In this document: positions 3,094 through 28,045 of the stretch, in pieces
Position numbering within the stretch: the first letter of the stretch is position 1
Layout: each line of letters starts with the position of its first letter
Assembly: GCA_903939515.1 (NCBI GenBank)
Contig: CAJAHH010000051.1
Location: 1-32,495 of the forward strand
DNA: 32,495 bases
Source: an uncultured Verrucomicrobiota bacterium
Lineage (GTDB): Bacteria; Verrucomicrobiota; Verrucomicrobiia; Limisphaerales; UBA9464
Direction: 5' to 3'
The notes under the pieces: model-generated
What the model was told of the DNA's origin: nothing
Seen by the model: the letters and a program-made list of their open reading frames with translations, nothing else
Database searches by the model: none
Program-made: the position numbers and the translations under genes

Positions 3094-3408
3094 TCAGTTT
3101 TTAACTGAACCTTCGGGCTGGGTTTTAATGGAACCATCCGGGTTCAGGACGTCCACCAGACGCCAAGCCTTGAGCTTGGACAACGGGCGGGTTTCTTGGA
3201 TGCGCACCAGGTCACCCACCTGGGCTAGTTTGGTCTCATCGTGGGCATACAGCTTTTTGAAGCTCGTGACGACCTTGCGATACTGAGGGTGGCGATAACG
3301 GCGCTCAACCTTAACAACGATGGTCTTTTCCATTTTGTTGGAAACAACCTCGCCGATGCGCTCCTTCCGGTGTCCGCGTTCTGTGGATGTCTGTGACATA
3401 CGGGTCAA
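3094..3408 (-). CDS. rpsQ: 30S ribosomal protein S17
   Basis: S17 is a primary binder of the 5' domain of 16S rRNA. The product has 104 residues from the ATG at 3408; an in-frame ATG three codons later is also possible. The core [19 protein letters not shown] and the motif [20 protein letters not shown] are typical. The C-terminus is about 15-20 residues longer than in E. coli ([17 protein letters not shown]). The start overlaps the rpmC stop by four bases (ATGA), which points to translational coupling and supports the upstream ATG. Confidence 0.95.
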
Positions 3409-3599
3409 GATTTCTTCAAAATTTGGGTCAACTGCGTCTCACCACGCGCGACTTCGCGGCGGATCTCGCGGATACGGTGAGGCTTCTCCAAGCGGGCTGT
3501 GGCCTGTTGGAGACGGAGGTTGAACAACTCCTGCCGAAGCTCGGTGCATTTGGCCGCGAGTTCCGCTGCCGTCAGGTCTTTAAAATTGCTTTTCGCCAT
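3405..3599 (-). CDS. rpmC: 50S ribosomal protein L29
   Basis: L29 lies at the exit of the peptide tunnel and forms part of the docking site for SRP and trigger factor. The 64-residue product has the two-helix form of the family ([20 protein letters not shown] ... [16 protein letters not shown]). A GAGGGGA Shine-Dalgarno-like run precedes the ATG. It overlaps rpsQ by four bases and follows rplP by 10 bases. Confidence 0.95.
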
Positions 3600-3609
3600 G
3601 ATCGTCCCC

Positions 3610-4029
3610 TCAACCCATCTTGTGACGTGAAATGAATTTGGTGGAAATCGGCAACTTGGTGGATGCCAAGCGCATAGCTTCCCGGGCTATCGCCTCAGGT
3701 ACGCCATCGACTTCGAACAAAACACTGGCTGGTCTAATGACCGCCACCCAGGATTCGACACCACCTTTACCGGTACCCATTCGGACTTCTAAAGGCTTCT
3801 TGGTGAACGACTTGTCGGGAAATATACGAATCCAGACTTTGCCGCGACGCTTCATGTAGCGGGTGATTGCCACGCGAGCCGCTTCGATTTGTTTGGTGTC
3901 CATCCAGCATCGCTCTAGCGACTGGAGTCCATATTCACCAAAAGCGACGGTGTTGCCTCGGGAAGCTATACCAGTACGGCTTCCGCGCTGCATCTTTCGA
4001 TATTTTACCCTTGCCGGCATCAATGCCAT
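3610..4029 (-). CDS. rplP: 50S ribosomal protein L16
   Basis: L16 helps to shape the A site and the peptidyl-transferase region of the large subunit. The 139-residue product begins [16 protein letters not shown] and carries the conserved [19 protein letters not shown] and [17 protein letters not shown] motifs. An AGGAG Shine-Dalgarno lies seven bases before the ATG at 4029. It occupies the standard place between rpsC and rpmC. Confidence 0.97.
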
Positions 4030-4054
4030 AAACGGTCTCCTAGAAAATGGTTAA

Positions 4055-4738
4055 TTATTTGACCAAAACAGCCTCAGGACGCTTGTCCTCGGGCTTGCGG
4101 ACATCCGCTTTCTTCATTTCACCTTTGCAGATCCAGCACTTGACCCCGAGCTTACCATACATGGTGTTCGCCTCGGCGAAACCATAGTCAATATTGGCTC
4201 GAAGTGTATGCAGTGGAACGCGACCTTCGTGGTAGACTTCTACTCGTGCGATCTCGGATCCACCGAGGCGGCCAGCGCATCGGATTTTGATGCCTTCGAC
4301 ACCCTCTGACATCCGAGCCTCTTGCACCGCTTTTTTCATGGCTCGACGAAATCCAATCCGTCGCTCGAGCTGCACTGCGATGTTTTCAGCGACCAGCTGA
4401 GCATCAGCCTTTTCGTTCTTGACCTCTTGAATGTCAACGTAGACATCCTTACCGGTCAACTTGGAGAGTTCTTCCTTGAGCTTGTCGATCTCGGAGCCCT
4501 TGCGACCGATGACGACTCCAGGACGGGCCGTGAAAATAGTGACGCGGCAACGGTTGGCAGCACGCTCAATATGAATCTTAGGAATCGCTGCAGATCCCAA
4601 CTTCTTTTTGAGAACTGTGCGGATGGCGATATCCTCCACCAGCAAGGCACCAAAGTCTCTCTTGTTGGCGTACCACTTGGAGCGCCATTCGCGGTTTACG
4701 GGGATCCGTAGACCGATCGGATTGGTTTTTTGGCCCAT
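4055..4738 (-). CDS. rpsC: 30S ribosomal protein S3
   Basis: S3 forms part of the mRNA entry channel and the ribosomal helicase. The 227-residue product has the N-terminal [20 protein letters not shown], a KH domain with the GRKG loop ([17 protein letters not shown], residues about 75-90), and the C-terminal domain with [21 protein letters not shown] and [14 protein letters not shown]. Length is typical. The start lies one base after the rplV stop, so the two are probably coupled. Confidence 0.97.
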
Positions 4739-4739
4739 G

Positions 4740-5075
4740 TTATTGGTTGTCCGTGAGAATGATCTTGATGTGGCTACTCCGCTTGAGGATCGGACCAGCC
4801 GAACCGCGAGCCTTAGGAATGAAGCGCTTGATGCTTCCGGCAGTCTGGGCGTAAGCCCGATGCACGATCAGCGATTCCGCCTTCAAGCCGTGGTTGTTTT
4901 CCGCATTAGCAATAGCCGAGGCGAGAGTCTTAGCGACTGCCCTAGCAGACTTGCGGGGTACAAACTTAAGCACCGCAAGTGCCTCAACCGCGCGCAAACC
5001 CTGGACCTGTCGTACGACTTCCCGGACCTTCTGCGCGGACATTCTGAAATTCTTGAGTATGGCCTGAACTTCCAT
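4740..5075 (-). CDS. rplV: 50S ribosomal protein L22
   Basis: L22 lines the peptide exit tunnel with its long beta hairpin. The 111-residue product has the N-terminal [20 protein letters not shown], the [12 protein letters not shown] segment, and the C-terminal hairpin region [21 protein letters not shown]. Length and order are standard. A GGAAC element lies close to the ATG but is a weak Shine-Dalgarno. Confidence 0.96.
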
Positions 5076-6440: not shown

Positions 6441-7418
6441 TTATTTTTCTGGTTGGCTGGTTTTTATGGGCTTTTTCCAGGGGTTTTTAGCTGGTTCAGC
6501 CTCTCCTAGAACTCGGTATCGGGTGCGGAAATGCATTTTGCTGACCCGAGGCAAAACTTCGCTTCCGTGACGTTCCACAAGCTTACGAGCAGCCTCTTCC
6601 ACAGCCGCGGAGGCACCTCGTAGCAGCGGCATGGAGAACTCCTTTTCGAGGTTTTTCATGCGCTGAAGGTACTCGTTGCGGGCCACAATGGAGGCGGCCG
6701 CGACAGCCATGTCCTCTTCAGCTCGATGTCGTTGAACCAATTCGACGCCTTTTCCGAGCGTCATGAGCGCCCGTTCTACCGTGGTTTTGCTAGACGCAAA
6801 CTGATCACTAATGGCGCGGACCGGCGGTGGGTTAAGCAGGGGTCCGCGTTCCAGCAGGTTTTCAATGGCTCGGGCATGCCCCCAAGCCAGCACCGTGTTG
6901 ACCGATCCGTGACGGACATGAAGTCGGTTGTAGGCCTCATTGCCGATGGCGATGACGCTGACTTGACACCCTGGGGTCTCTCGGATTGCCCGGTTGAGAT
7001 GAGCGATTTGAGCATCGCTACCGACTGATTTAGAATCACGTATTCCCACGGTTTTCCAGGCGTTTAGGACCGATTTGTTGACATAAACCGCAGCGACACA
7101 CAGCGGCCCAAAAAAGTCTCCCTTACCAGATTCATCAACGCCAATGCGGGCATCGAGCAGGCTTGGATCCAGCGTGCTTTCGTAGCCCAGCGTGGCAGCA
7201 CCTAAAATTTCCGGCTCGAGGACGAACTCAATAAAGTCCCGAGTCCCCTTCCCCTGCACCACCAGCTTTCCGCTGAGATAGAGGGTTACATTGAGATCCT
7301 TTTTGGCGCCACTGATGCGGGCATAAGGCACCTCTTTGAGGTCGTAGGGACCGGCTTGCAGGTGGGCTACGAGTTGGGTTGCCTGATCGGTTGTCAATGT
7401 CGCTGTGTGACTGGTCAC
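6441..7418 (-). CDS. rnhC: Ribonuclease HIII
   Basis: Cleaves the RNA strand of RNA-DNA hybrids in the cytoplasm, removing primers and R-loops. The 325-residue product has an N-terminal TBP-like substrate-binding region (residues about 1-85) and a catalytic RNase H fold. The signature GVDESGKGDFFGPLCVAAVYV carries the DEsGkGD metal-binding motif that separates HIII from HII. Further conserved segments are IRDSKSVGSD, ISDQFASS (Asp) and EEDMAVAAASIVARNEY. It begins with GTG at 7418, and no Shine-Dalgarno is visible. It is transcribed away from mutY, with 80 bases between the starts, and its 3' end faces the ribosomal operon. Confidence 0.95.
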   Translation of the reverse strand: MTSHTATLTTDQATQLVAHLQAGPYDLKEVPYARISGAKKDLNVTLYLSGKLVVQGKGTRDFIEFVLEPEILGAATLGYESTLDPSLLDARIGVDESGKGDFFGPLCVAAVYVNKSVLNAWKTVGIRDSKSVGSDAQIAHLNRAIRETPGCQVSVIAIGNEAYNRLHVRHGSVNTVLAWGHARAIENLLERGPLLNPPPVRAISDQFASSKTTVERALMTLGKGVELVQRHRAEEDMAVAAASIVARNEYLQRMKNLEKEFSMPLLRGASAAVEEAARKLVERHGSEVLPRVSKMHFRTRYRVLGEAEPAKNPWKKPIKTSQPEK

Positions 7419-7498
7419 GGAGGACCGTGGGCCTTGGATTGGGCGGGTTGTCGAGTCAGAACTGGCCCCAGGCCGACAGGCAGGTCAGCTTCGGCACC

Positions 7499-8650
7499 AT
7501 GGGATTGCAACGGTGGAGCAAGATCGGTGACTCGGTTCAAGATCCGGAGAGATTTCTGGCGTTCACCGCGGAGCTGCTCACTCGATGGTTTGACAAGAAC
7601 GCCCGAGATCTTCCGTGGCGCAGGACGCAAGATCCTTACGCAGTGTGGATTTCAGAGGTGATGCTGCAACAAACACAGGTGCAAACGGTGATCCCCTATT
7701 GGCGCCGCTGGATGGACAAGCTTCCGAGGATCCGCGATTTGGCTGAGGCGCCTCCAGAACTGGTTCTCAAACTTTGGGAAGGACTCGGATATTACTCCCG
7801 CGCCCGCAATCTGCAGCGCTCGGCCTGCCAAATTCTTGAGAACCACAATGGAGAGTTTCCTCGAGATCCTAGTGCCATCCTATCTCTGCCAGGAATCGGA
7901 CGCTACACAGCAGGGGCCATTGCCTCCATCGCTCTCGACCAACCCGAGCCTATCCTAGACGGGAACGTAATCCGGGTGCTCACTCGCTTCTTCGCTCTGG
8001 AGGGCGACCCCAAGACCCGGCCTCTGAATCAGCAGTTGTGGGAGCTGGCGGCTGCATTGGTTTGGGTGACTCATGAGTCCACACATTTAGGTGATCGTCG
8101 GTGCGCGCGGATCAACCAGTCGCTCATGGAATTGGGTGCCACGGTGTGTACCCCGGGTGCACAGCCCGCCTGCGGAGTTTGCCCTGTAGCCGGTGACTGC
8201 GAAGCTCGGCGGCGAGGCCAACAAGAACGATTCCCGGAGCTGCCGCCACGGGTTCCTATAACAGGGCGTTTCTTTGCCACTGGAATCGTCGCGTATGAGG
8301 GGCGATACCTCCTGAGACTGCGCGAGGATACGGAGGTGAATCGAGGGTTCTGGGAGTTTCCGAACTGGGAAACAGGCCCCTCTGACCCGCCGGAGGCGGT
8401 GTTGAGCGACCAGTTGGGCATTCCTCCAAACTGTTGGTCTTCACAGCCCGACCTGCGCCATCACATCACTCGGTACCGGATGACCCAACGGATTCGGTGC
8501 GCCTGTTTCCTGCCCTCCCCAGACTGGGCCAAGGGAACCTGGCTTTGGGCCACGGTCACCGAACTGGAGTCTCTGGCCATGACCGCAGCCCACCGCAAAC
8601 TCTCGTTGCGCCTCGTCAAAATTTTAGGGGAAAGCCCGCAATTGTCATAG
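7499..8650 (+). CDS. mutY: A/G-specific adenine DNA glycosylase
   Basis: Removes adenine mispaired with 8-oxoguanine. The start at ATG 7499 (MGLQRWSKIGDS) gives 383 residues. The frame extends back to 7379 without family similarity and would run into the divergent rnhC start. The N-terminal half holds the helix-hairpin-helix glycosylase domain: DLPWRRTQDPYAVWISEVMLQQTQVQTVIPYW with the catalytic Glu in SEVMLQQT, LPGIGRYTAGAIAS as HhH, and LDGNVIRVLTR with the catalytic Asp. The iron-sulfur cysteines read C-X7-C-X2-C-X5-C (CTPGAQPACGVCPVAGDC), where the usual spacing is C-X6-C-X2-C-X5-C. The C-terminal part (GIVAYEGRYLLRLRED...GFWEFPNWE) is the NUDIX-like 8-oxoG recognition domain. It ends in TAG 18 bases before the RF3-fragment gene. 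Confidence 0.95.
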   Translation: MGLQRWSKIGDSVQDPERFLAFTAELLTRWFDKNARDLPWRRTQDPYAVWISEVMLQQTQVQTVIPYWRRWMDKLPRIRDLAEAPPELVLKLWEGLGYYSRARNLQRSACQILENHNGEFPRDPSAILSLPGIGRYTAGAIASIALDQPEPILDGNVIRVLTRFFALEGDPKTRPLNQQLWELAAALVWVTHESTHLGDRRCARINQSLMELGATVCTPGAQPACGVCPVAGDCEARRRGQQERFPELPPRVPITGRFFATGIVAYEGRYLLRLREDTEVNRGFWEFPNWETGPSDPPEAVLSDQLGIPPNCWSSQPDLRHHITRYRMTQRIRCACFLPSPDWAKGTWLWATVTELESLAMTAAHRKLSLRLVKILGESPQLS

Positions 8651-8668
8651 GAGTCGGTCGGAGCCACT

Positions 8669-9448
8669 GTGTGCGGACAAGTGAACGACGGACGACTCAT
8701 AGCCCCAGATTACCCGCATTTTTCGGGCTTCATTTTTAAGATCCAGGCCAACATGGATCCGAAGCATCGGGATCGCATCGCCTTCGTGCGGATCGTCAGC
8801 GGGAAGTTCGAGCGAGACATGAACGTGATTCACATCCAGTCGGGTCGGAAAGTCCGCCTGAGTTCATCGCACAAACTCTTCGGAAATGAACGAGAGACAG
8901 TGGATGTGGCGTACCCCGGGGACATCATCGGTCTAGTGGGCCACGATGGCTTCGGAATCGGAGATACTCTGAGCACCGATCCAAAGATTCGCTTCGATGA
9001 GATCCCCCGTTTTACCCCCGAGGTGTTCGAATATTTTCACAATCCCAACACGGCCAAGTTCAAGCAGTTCCGCCAGGGGTTGGACCAGTTGCTCTTAGAA
9101 GGCGTGGCGCAGGCTTTCCATCTGAAGGACACAGCCAGCCGGGTTCCGCTGTTAGCGGCCGTCGGCCCGTTGCAGTTCGAGGTGCTTCAGTACCGGCTCG
9201 AGACGGAATACAATGCCGAGACGCGACGGGAGAGTGCACCGTTCTCCACCGTCCGCTGGCTGCCCCAGGGAACGCCGACTGAAACTCTGGACACCCTCTC
9301 GTTGCCCACTGGAGCCCGATTGGCCTTCGACATGGACTCCAACCCTGTAGTTCTTTTCCCCAGCGAGTGGTCGTTGGGGTATTTTTCACAAAACCATCCC
9401 AAGCTCACCCTGACCTCACTGGCACCTCCCCGGCTGCACACCCGATAA
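8669..9448 (+). CDS. prfC: Peptide chain release factor 3, C-terminal half only (GTPase domain missing)
   Basis: The 259-residue product matches domains II and III of RF3, the GTPase that recycles RF1/RF2 after termination. Recognisable parts are FSGFIFKIQANMDPKHRDRI followed by AFVRIVSGKFE (strongly conserved in RF3), YPGDIIGLVGHDGFGIGDTL, RFTPEVFEYF and AAVGPLQFEVLQYRLETEYN. It corresponds to roughly residue 295 to the end of E. coli RF3 (529 residues). The entire G domain with P-loop and NKxD is absent: the frame begins with about 18 unrelated residues after a GTG at 8669 preceded by GGAG (8660-8663), and upstream lies intact mutY, in the same frame and separated by one TAG. No frameshift or stop occurs within the 259 codons. 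It could be a degrading truncated gene, a functional stand-alone domain protein or an assembly artefact. Co-transcription with mutY and trpB is likely. Confidence 0.85.
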   Translation: MCGQVNDGRLIAPDYPHFSGFIFKIQANMDPKHRDRIAFVRIVSGKFERDMNVIHIQSGRKVRLSSSHKLFGNERETVDVAYPGDIIGLVGHDGFGIGDTLSTDPKIRFDEIPRFTPEVFEYFHNPNTAKFKQFRQGLDQLLLEGVAQAFHLKDTASRVPLLAAVGPLQFEVLQYRLETEYNAETRRESAPFSTVRWLPQGTPTETLDTLSLPTGARLAFDMDSNPVVLFPSEWSLGYFSQNHPKLTLTSLAPPRLHTR

Positions 9449-9478
9449 ATTTACGCCGCTCCCATCGATTTGCCTGAT

Positions 9479-10702
9479 ATGACTTCCGCCACTGATTTCG
9501 CCTCAACGGCCATGCCCGACTCGACCGGCCATTTCGGGCCGTTCGGAGGACGCTACGTGCCAGAGACTCTCGTCCACCCGCTCCAGCAGCTCGAGGACGA
9601 ATACTGGCGCGCCCAGCAAGACCCAGAGTTCCAGCGGGAACTCGATTATTATCTCAAGGAGTTCGTGGGACGGCCGACACCCCTGTATTTCGCTGAGCGC
9701 CTGACGAAAGCTCTGGGCGGAGCACGGATCTACTTGAAGCGGGAAGATCTGCTGCACACCGGTGCCCACAAAATTAACAACGCCATGGGCCAGGTACTGC
9801 TGGCCAAGCGCATGGGCAAGACTCGGATCATCGCCGAGACCGGAGCCGGTCAGCACGGCGTAGCAACGGCCACCGTCTCGGCCATGTTTGGCATGAAATG
9901 TGTCATCTACATGGGGGCGGTCGACTGCAAGCGGCAGGAACTCAATGTCTACCGCATGAAGATGCTCGGGGCCGAGGTGGTTCCGGTGAAGGCCGGCCAG
10001 CAAACCCTCAAGGAGGCGGTCAATGAGGCCATGCGCGACTGGGTGACGAACGTCCGTTCGACCCACTACATCCTGGGCACGGCCTATGGCGCCCACCCCT
10101 ACCCGGTCATGGTTCGCAATTTTCACCGGATCATAGGAGACGAGGCCCGTGCCCAGATCCTTGAGTGCGAGAATCGTCTGCCAGACCTGCTCATTGCCTG
10201 CGTCGGCGGCGGATCCAACGCCATCGGATTGTTCTACCCATTCCTGAACGATTCCTCTGTGCGGATGCTGGGAGTCGAGGCCGGCGGCGAGGGGATCATG
10301 CCCGAAAAGCATGCCGCACGCTTCCAGGGTGGCTCTCTAGGCGTTCTGCAAGGCACCCGCAGCTACATCCTTCAGGACGAGTTTGGGCAGATCCAGCTCA
10401 CCCACAGTGTCAGCGCGGGACTCGACTATGCCGCGGTCGGACCCGAGCACGCTTGGCTGAAGGACCGCAACCGAGTGGAGTACAGCTACGCCACCGACAC
10501 GGAGGCTCTGGATGGCTTCCTGGGCCTAGCCAAGATGGAAGGGATTATCCCGGCCCTGGAGAGCGCCCATGCCGTAGCGGGAGCCATCCAGCGTGCACCT
10601 ACCATGTCCAAGGATGCGGTGATCATCGTGAATCTATCCGGACGCGGTGACAAAGACGTCATGCAGGCCGCTCAGAAACTGGGAATCGGCTTGCCGGACT
10701 GA
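9479..10702 (+). CDS. trpB: Tryptophan synthase beta chain
   Basis: Condenses indole with L-serine to form tryptophan, using PLP. The start at ATG 9479 ([12 protein letters not shown]...) gives 407 residues; an ATG at 9512 ([13 protein letters not shown]) would give the length most usual for the family (about 396), so either is possible. The PLP lysine lies in [15 protein letters not shown], the phosphate-binding loop in [15 protein letters not shown], and [15 protein letters not shown] and [13 protein letters not shown] are also conserved, all of the TrpB1 type. trpA is not next to it; the neighbours are the RF3 fragment (30 bases upstream) and the mcs genes (convergent). Confidence 0.97.
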
Positions 10703-22987: not shown

Positions 22988-24181
22988 GTGAACCCTTCCC
23001 ATCCCGTCTCTGCCACTATCTCCCGTCGCGACTTTGCTAAGGCTTCCCTCCTGACTGCCGGAGCGTTCGCGGCGGCTCCCTGGGAGTCTTCGGTGAAGGC
23101 TGCGGAGCCTGGAACCCGACGCATCCGGACCGGAGTCATCGGCTGCGGCAGCGTCTCCAACCAGTACCTTCCTGTCCTCAAGCGTTGCCCGTTTATTGAA
23201 CTAGTCAGCGTCGCTGATATCCGGCCGGAACGGGCCCGAAAACAGTCTGAAGCGTATCAGGTGCCCCACCACTACCCGAGCATCGATGCTATGCTGGCCG
23301 GGGAACCCTTCGAATTCCTCATCGACCTCACCGACATGCAGGCCCACGAGGCCATCAACCGACGCGCCCTTCAGGCTGGCAAGCATGTGTGGAGCGAGAA
23401 GCCCATCGCCAACAGCCTGGAGGCAGGACAGCAACTGCTGCGTTTGGCCCTGCGGCGCAAGCTCCGGCTCTGGGGAGCCCCAATCACCGTGCAAAGCCCA
23501 CAGTTCGCCTTCATGGCCCGTAAAGTGGCCTCCGGTGATTTGGGTCGCATTGCCGCAGCACACGCCTTCTACGGGCACGAAGGTCCGGATTGGTCGTCGT
23601 TCTTCTACGAAAAGGGCGGAGGCAGCCTTCCGGATCTGGCGGTCTACAACCTCACCAGCCTCACCGGACTGCTGGGACCGGTCCGAAGAGTTACGGCCCT
23701 CCTGAGCATCGTCACCCCAGAGCGGACCATTCACGAAAAGGGCAAGATCCAGGTCACCGAGGAGGACAACGCCATGGTGCTACTAGACCACGGCAAGGGC
23801 GTCCTCTCGCATGTTCAGTCGGGCTTCAACTATTTCAACCCCCACGGGCATGACGGCAGTGGTGAGAAACGGCACACGATCCAGATCACCGGCAGTCGCG
23901 GTTACGTAGGGCTGGTCGGTTACGATTGGGCCCCGCAGGGCGTTGAATGGGCTACGCTGGACCGTCCCCAATTGGTTCGGGAATGCACCGAACCCGGCGG
24001 ATATATATGGCAACAGGGAGCTGCCCTAGCAGCGGAATGCCTGGCGACAGGCCGTGAACTCTTGGCTACCCCAGAACAGGCTCTCCACGTCCTGGAGATC
24101 ATCACCGCGGCTCGCGCCTCCTCGGCCAAAGGTCGGACTATTCCTTTGAAGTCCACCTTCCGTTGGCCGTTGCCGGTTTGA
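22988..24181 (+). CDS. Second Tat-exported Gfo/Idh/MocA family oxidoreductase
   Basis: A 397-residue protein from a GTG at 22988 (MNPSHPVSATISRRDFAKAS). I chose this start because it puts the twin-arginine motif ISRRDFAKASLLTAGAFAAA near the N-terminus; an ATG at 22868 is also in frame, but would place the motif more than 50 residues in. The Rossmann domain reads RIRTGVIGCGSVSNQYLPVL, then LVSVADIRPERARKQ, and the EKP lysine lies in HVWSEKPIANSLEAGQ. The C-terminal half (GGSLPDLAVYNLTSLTGLLG) differs from the first copy, so the two are distant paralogues rather than a recent duplication. Substrate unknown; exported sugar metabolism is plausible. Confidence 0.88.
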   Translation: MNPSHPVSATISRRDFAKASLLTAGAFAAAPWESSVKAAEPGTRRIRTGVIGCGSVSNQYLPVLKRCPFIELVSVADIRPERARKQSEAYQVPHHYPSIDAMLAGEPFEFLIDLTDMQAHEAINRRALQAGKHVWSEKPIANSLEAGQQLLRLALRRKLRLWGAPITVQSPQFAFMARKVASGDLGRIAAAHAFYGHEGPDWSSFFYEKGGGSLPDLAVYNLTSLTGLLGPVRRVTALLSIVTPERTIHEKGKIQVTEEDNAMVLLDHGKGVLSHVQSGFNYFNPHGHDGSGEKRHTIQITGSRGYVGLVGYDWAPQGVEWATLDRPQLVRECTEPGGYIWQQGAALAAECLATGRELLATPEQALHVLEIITAARASSAKGRTIPLKSTFRWPLPV

Positions 24182-27970: not shown

Positions 27971-28045
27971 TGGTAGCGCGCACGGGAATTGAACCCGTCT
28001 TTCAGCCTTGAGAGGGCCGTGTCCTAGCCGATAGACGAGCGCGCC
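27971..28045 (-). tRNA. tRNA-Glu, anticodon CTC
   Basis: A 75-base tRNA reading on the minus strand. Acceptor 5' strand is GGCGCGC, then TC, D-arm GTCT-ATCGGCTA-GGAC, base A, anticodon arm CGGCC-CTCTCAA-GGCTG, four variable bases, T-arm ACGGG-TTCAATT-CCCGT, acceptor 3' strand GCGCGCT, and an encoded ACCA end. Anticodon CTC reads GAG (Glu); the TCGTCTA...AGGACAC pattern is typical of tRNA-Glu. The first pair would be G1-U72, a wobble, where G-C is usual. It lies 106 bases downstream of dnaG with its own promoter. Confidence 0.93.

Follow-up and report, generated by a model that had tools for sequence, protein, structure and literature searches.

The stretch of DNA analysed here (the window; 32,495 nucleotides) is the entire contig C51 of a draft genome of an uncultured Verrucomicrobiota bacterium (G000; 4.71 Mb in 160 contigs, 95.9% complete), and it carries on its forward strand one part of a gene for release factor 3 (RF3, prfC). 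The frame at 8651–9448 is open, with no internal stop, and encodes RF3 domains II and III (the C-half). Pfam identifies EF-G_D2 (85.6 bits, 2.6e-24; cut-off 27) and, behind it, RF3_C (PF16658; 131.1 bits, 2.8e-38, profile positions 1–131 of 132; cut-off 40.1). RF3 models of NCBIfam align only from position 282/283 onward, and their scores lie under the curated cut-offs (262.8 against 473 bits for NF001964; 234–236 against 466.95 bits for TIGR00503). A search of the contig with the prfC model gave no match besides the C-half, and no GTPase domain was found near it, as had been noted for this intact frame in an earlier reading of the letters alone (the sequence-only reading).

The absent domain has a gene of its own on another contig of this genome. 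The prfC model (TIGR00503) finds the RF3 G domain as a separate frame on contig C101 (23729–24556, minus strand; 400.2 bits), outside the window, and the corresponding gene (the G-half; contig positions 23711–24568, equivalent to 4012–4869 of locus L092, minus strand) specifies 285 residues from a GTG. It carries GTP_EFTU (178.2 bits, Pfam), and RF3 models rank at the top in NCBIfam, again with scores under the curated cut-offs (400–402 against 466.95 bits for TIGR00503; 434.9 against 473 bits for NF001964). The two halves complement each other exactly: TIGR00503 positions 6–281 are covered by the G-half and 282–523 by the C-half (234 bits), and along the chain of E. coli RF3 (PDB 2h5e) the matched positions are 8–283 and 285–519. 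Hence the idea that the window might encode a relative of RF3 that has lost GTP hydrolysis falls away, since an RF3 G domain with all conserved positions is encoded in the same genome, and what the prfC search of that genome found there is this separate 285-residue gene, not a full-length prfC. EF-G, TypA/BipA, LepA and Tet share the G domain plus domain II architecture with the RF3 halves and appear as weaker matches of both; unlike the RF3 halves, the next three best prfC-model matches in the genome each occupy one unbroken frame (752, 626 and 629 residues).

The C-half probably begins at GTG 8681, giving a protein of 255 residues (8681–9448, plus strand), because this codon is conserved in all 15 same-genus copies and GTG 8669 is not. 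The sequence GTGAACGA, whose GTG is the one at 8681, is common to all 15 of these loci. The sequence-only reading had started the frame four codons earlier (8669–8680, plus strand), at a GTG preceded by GGAG. The GGAG is there, 17 bases ahead of GTG 8681, but the codon aligned with GTG 8669 is GTC in genomes G002 and G003 and GTA in G014 and G017.

The cut falls in the linker between domains I and II. All 36 G-half ends analysed stop 4–9 residues past the P.GR motif (mostly PRGR) that closes the G domain, and the C-halves have ∼14–20 residues between the likely start and the domain II motif FSGFIFKIQANMDP. In intact RF3 the same linker comprises 20–26 variable residues within the family, 18 in G081 and mostly ∼15 in other outgroups (longer in G091).

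Both halves are under strong purifying selection. Within the genus, the median ratio of nonsynonymous to synonymous substitution rates (dN/dS, NG86 method) comes to 0.036 for the G-half (14 sequences; 54 of the 91 pairs usable) and to 0.048 for the C-half (15 sequences; 56 of the 105 pairs usable), both far below 1, whereas a C-half value near 1 would have told against the sequence-only reading. These medians exclude pairs whose dS fell outside 0.02–1.5 or could not be calculated (37 for the G-half and 49 for the C-half), as well as the partial G-halves of G001 and G006. Intact RF3 sequences from other families also served to define positions with at least 97% conservation, of which the G part has 82 (40 rows) and the C part 40 (46 rows). 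In the 22 of 34 sequences covered for each half, every one of these positions is kept (1804/1804 cells in split G-halves and 880/880 in split C-halves). Distances relative to rpoB between genera of the family are similar in the two classes of pair: 1.19 (G part) and 1.44 (C part) for split–split pairs (204 pairs), and 1.27 for both parts for intact–intact pairs (16 pairs).

To see how widespread the arrangement is, we searched 50 genomes of the family for prfC, weaker pieces included. Both halves occur as separate genes in 31 of them, and the halves co-occur: a G-half is present in 31 of the 34 genomes in which the C-half is separate. An uninterrupted RF3 is found in eight genomes, seven with scores above cut-off (G019, G022, G026, G028, G029, G034 and G040) and the eighth (G045) with one frame that spans the linker and is cut by a contig end. 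Among the 28 genomes with completeness of 90% or more and contamination of 5% or less, both halves are present in 20, a full-length RF3 in 7 and the C-half only in 1 (G015). The G-halves of G003 and G046 are each divided between two contig pieces and end as G-halves normally do. No family genome has a full-length RF3 together with a separate half, a piece at a contig end in G042 aside. That piece (L051, G042:C208, 1–573) is a second RF3 C-terminal segment, 58% identical, beside a normal C-half, and represents contamination or a second RF3. Separate C-halves are spread across seven genera, 81–98% identical to that of the window, which speaks against the recent deletion that had been considered. 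An assembly join, likewise considered, is contradicted by recurrence in independent assemblies, four of which have both halves on one contig yet apart (4.0 kb in G043, 4.8 kb in G023, 9.1 kb in G035 and 173 kb in G004).

Outside the family, no such split was seen among the 178 RF3-positive genomes of the order (270 genomes searched, E 1e-60); by tally, 171 of the 178 have one frame over the cut-off. Eleven non-family genomes with odd patterns were re-examined individually and the split was rejected, the causes lying elsewhere: G256, G260, G267, G313 and G314 each have one frame, RF3 is cut by contig ends in G194, G195, G210 and G284, and G302 has an N gap and G162 a frameshift. G051 was also rejected as a split, as contig ends cut both of its pieces and 41 domain II residues are still joined to the G domain. 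Across bacteria, we considered the best 80 of at least 590 matching public loci. Among these 80, the P-loop lies in the same frame in 75, four start at a contig end, and one (L234; record title Verrucomicrobia bacterium RE-27jun17-205) is a C-half of the same genus as the window. Three public metagenome-assembled genomes titled Akkermansia muciniphila (L235, L249 and L252) have an RF3 56–71% identical to the window protein, and their titles may be mislabelled. In the open-licence PMC literature, none of the titles and abstract openings covered describes a split RF3, and the passages of two translational GTPase surveys covered here do not mention one (PMC1780047, PMC4342817). The split, found to be real and conserved, is thus apparently undescribed so far.

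The two halves sit in different, conserved neighbourhoods. In the window, the frame directly upstream of the C-half is mutY (adenine glycosylase; HhH-GPD and NUDIX_4; frame bounds 7379–8650, plus strand), which ends 30 bases ahead of the likely C-half start, and the frame directly downstream is trpB (tryptophan synthase beta chain; PALP; 9470–10702, plus strand). The expected recurrence of this order in relatives was confirmed at the same-genus loci: trpB comes next after the C-half at each of the 14 loci (of 15) that have contig sequence beyond it, and mutY is present upstream at 14 of the 15, at a distance of 2.1 kb in G013. The sole exception of the 15, L127 (G004:C57), has a C-half that adjoins trpB and no mutY match upstream as far as the contig end (∼3.4 kb). 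At the G013 locus (L048, G013:C352) the initial 65 residues of the C-half occur a second time (3330–3521, 75% identity), ∼1.5 kb upstream of the intact C-half; this may be a partial duplication or a product of chimeric assembly. A full-length prfC, whose presence at this place in close relatives would have told against the sequence-only reading, does exist in 8 of the 50 family genomes, but never at the mutY–trpB place in the loci analysed. The G-half of the same genome is flanked on its 5′ side by a gene for a 605-residue protein and on the other side by a convergent gene with 3-hydroxyisobutyrate-dehydrogenase-type domains. At same-genus G-half loci a dehydrogenase gene adjoins in 15 of 16 cases and a protease gene in 13 of 16, the remainder ending at contig ends.

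Most translational GTPases consist of one chain that couples GTP hydrolysis in domain I to the domains following it. In the present case RF3 is naturally split, and we consider it very probable that its halves act as a non-covalent pair, which is the simplest account because both halves keep RF3 positions. A G-domain protein of ∼285 residues and a domain II–III protein of ∼255 residues would associate without a covalent link, either free in solution or at the ribosome. Domains II–III would hold the small subunit, the G domain would reach the sarcin–ricin loop (SRL) and hydrolyse GTP, and RF1/RF2 would leave via subunit rotation, so that the paired halves would do the job of one-chain RF3. Both the pairing and the recycling of RF1/RF2 are inferred. 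For E. coli RF3, parts of one study describe small-subunit contacts of domains 2 and 3 (uS12, h5 and h15) and a G domain that nears the SRL on the subunit rotation proposed to dislodge RF1 (PMC6076264). The cut would separate precisely these two functions, with the C-half as the small-subunit anchor and the G-half as the GTPase facing the large subunit.

Each half yields a confident predicted structure. The AlphaFold model of the C-half has a mean predicted local distance difference test (pLDDT) score of 85.5 and a predicted template modelling (pTM) score of 0.73; for the G-half these values are 81.4 and 0.83, with uncertainty in the tail and in residues 47–54, which we take to be about the expected place of switch I. 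Foldseek ranks RF3 structures first in the PDB for both halves. Split RF3 is a variant of a classical translation factor. It shares with one-chain RF3 (prfC; TIGR00503, NF001964; PDB 2h5e) the sequence, the domains GTP_EFTU, EF-G_D2 and RF3_C, the conserved positions and the predicted folds, but one-chain RF3 is a single polypeptide of ∼527 residues, whereas here there are two genes and neither half reaches the cut-off alone. Other split proteins have arisen by gene fission, such as mitochondrial cox2 (PMC5374615, PMC9895450) and Doa10 (PMC3464245). Those are organellar or eukaryotic membrane proteins, whereas RF3 is a translational GTPase of bacteria and soluble, and here the break separates the GTPase domain from the ribosome-anchoring ones.

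Several observations weigh against a functional split RF3. Eight of the 50 family genomes have a single half (the G-half only in G001, G006, G018, G038 and G039; the C-half only in G015, G042 and G049) and three have neither (G011, G032 and G047); most of these are incomplete drafts, but G015 is 90% complete. The G042 draft may hold a second, perhaps intact RF3. RF3 itself is not universal in the order, as 96 of 320 genomes have no match at E 1e-60. In 27 of the 31 genomes that have the two halves, these are located on separate contigs, and hence their dosage is not visibly tied. Relative to rpoB, the split C-half has evolved slightly faster than its intact counterpart (1.44 versus 1.27). Finally, the C-half model superimposes on RF3 crystal structures with a TM-score of only ∼0.5 and a root-mean-square deviation of ∼9 Å over 250 columns, indicating that, without the G domain, the way domains II and III are arranged towards each other was not recovered. 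The model appears to contain two correct domains in a mutual placement that differs from the crystals, and the lone half may or may not truly adopt it.

Given the intact outgroups, the simplest history of the split is a single ancient fission at the family's base, followed by restorations in g5, in g2 and in the group of G029, G040 and G045. On an rpoB tree of 37 of the 50 family genomes (including G032, for which no RF3 state is known), a minimum of four changes between split and intact is required. That the split instead arose many times independently is possible but doubtful, as about six fissions at the same linker site would be needed on this tree. In approximately unbiased (AU) tests with rpoB, a single clade of all split genomes was rejected (p 0.009), as was one of all intact family genomes (p 4e-9), the groups for these tests having been picked after a tree had been inspected. 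RF3 sequences alone, in AU tests on groups picked in the same way, reject neither clade (p 0.222 for split, p 0.33 for intact), which leaves some room for repeated fission and means that whole RF3 genes may have been transferred within the family. RF3 trees (G part, C part and both together) are poorly supported inside the family, and the intact RF3 of G081, filed in another family, falls among the family in them.

Gene positions (with neighbours named by NCBIfam) bear on both histories. The C-half of G033 lies ∼55 bases ahead of an ABC-F gene, and intact prfC is likewise followed by ABC-F in 7 of the 24 outgroups analysed (G050, G051, G058, G060, G070, G086 and G090), which is why we regard this C-half as holding an old prfC place, a point against repeated fission. 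Conversely, intact genes stand at G-half-like places, as if they had stayed and C-halves had left: that of G029 has the divergent zwf neighbour common to the G-halves of G023, G035, G037 and G043, and in g2 the neighbour is gatB, a gene also found close to the G-half of G033. Taken together, the data fit a fission in which the G-half moved away, with later re-joining.

A tentative extension of the split-RF3 reading, conceivable though not what we would expect to hold, is a reversible two-protein GTPase: the halves would come from different operons, the supply of either half could regulate GTPase engagement, and the split would have been kept in most of the family and reversed about three times. 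If true, the family would form a natural series of fissions and re-fusions affecting a core translation factor. In any event, a stable natural split, maintained by strong selection in many species and with intact sister lineages, would let one ask directly whether RF3 needs covalent coupling of the GTPase to the ribosome-binding domains. There is also a warning for annotation, as each half falls below the family cut-offs and can resemble a pseudogene or a lost RF3.

It is improbable that the halves work apart, with the C-half as a GTP-independent ribosome ligand and the G-half having another job or partner. Their separate genes and different neighbourhoods would suit such independence, but free specialisation should have relaxed some of the positions conserved in intact RF3, and all are kept in the tested copies; nor, the G042 piece aside, does any half stand beside a full-length RF3 in the 50 family genomes. 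Far less credible still is a single joined chain made by RNA trans-splicing or a split intein. In its favour, the cut is clean and falls within the linker in every case, but the residues available there (4–9 past P.GR and ∼14–20 before the domain II motif) are too few for intein halves, whose sizes exceed them. Moreover, mutY ends just 30 bases before the C-half start, and no Rfam intron family was matched in the window or in the 19.5 kb around the same genome's G-half, and we rejected both a split intein and an intron. There is almost no chance that the C-half is a dying fragment left by a false assembly join, by contaminating DNA or by a recent deletion, for although the genomes are drafts and some halves lie at contig ends, both halves of this genome are internal to contigs of 32–35 kb (35 kb for that of the G-half), same-genus synteny is maintained (trpB next in 14/14, mutY upstream in 14/15) and dN/dS is ∼0.04, so that artefact, deletion and pseudogene were rejected on recurrence and dN/dS.

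Some further features accompany the two loci. Divergent from mutY in the window is an RNase HII/HIII-type gene (6441–7418, minus strand), part of the conserved neighbourhood and outside the RF3 system, and Rfam places a tRNA gene at 27974–28045 (minus strand). The 605-residue protein adjoining the G-half upstream (L092 4963–6777, minus strand) is rich in Gly, Pro and Arg, has no Pfam match and is kept in several same-genus genomes. The G-half contig also bears a cobalamin riboswitch (L228 2148–2366, minus strand).
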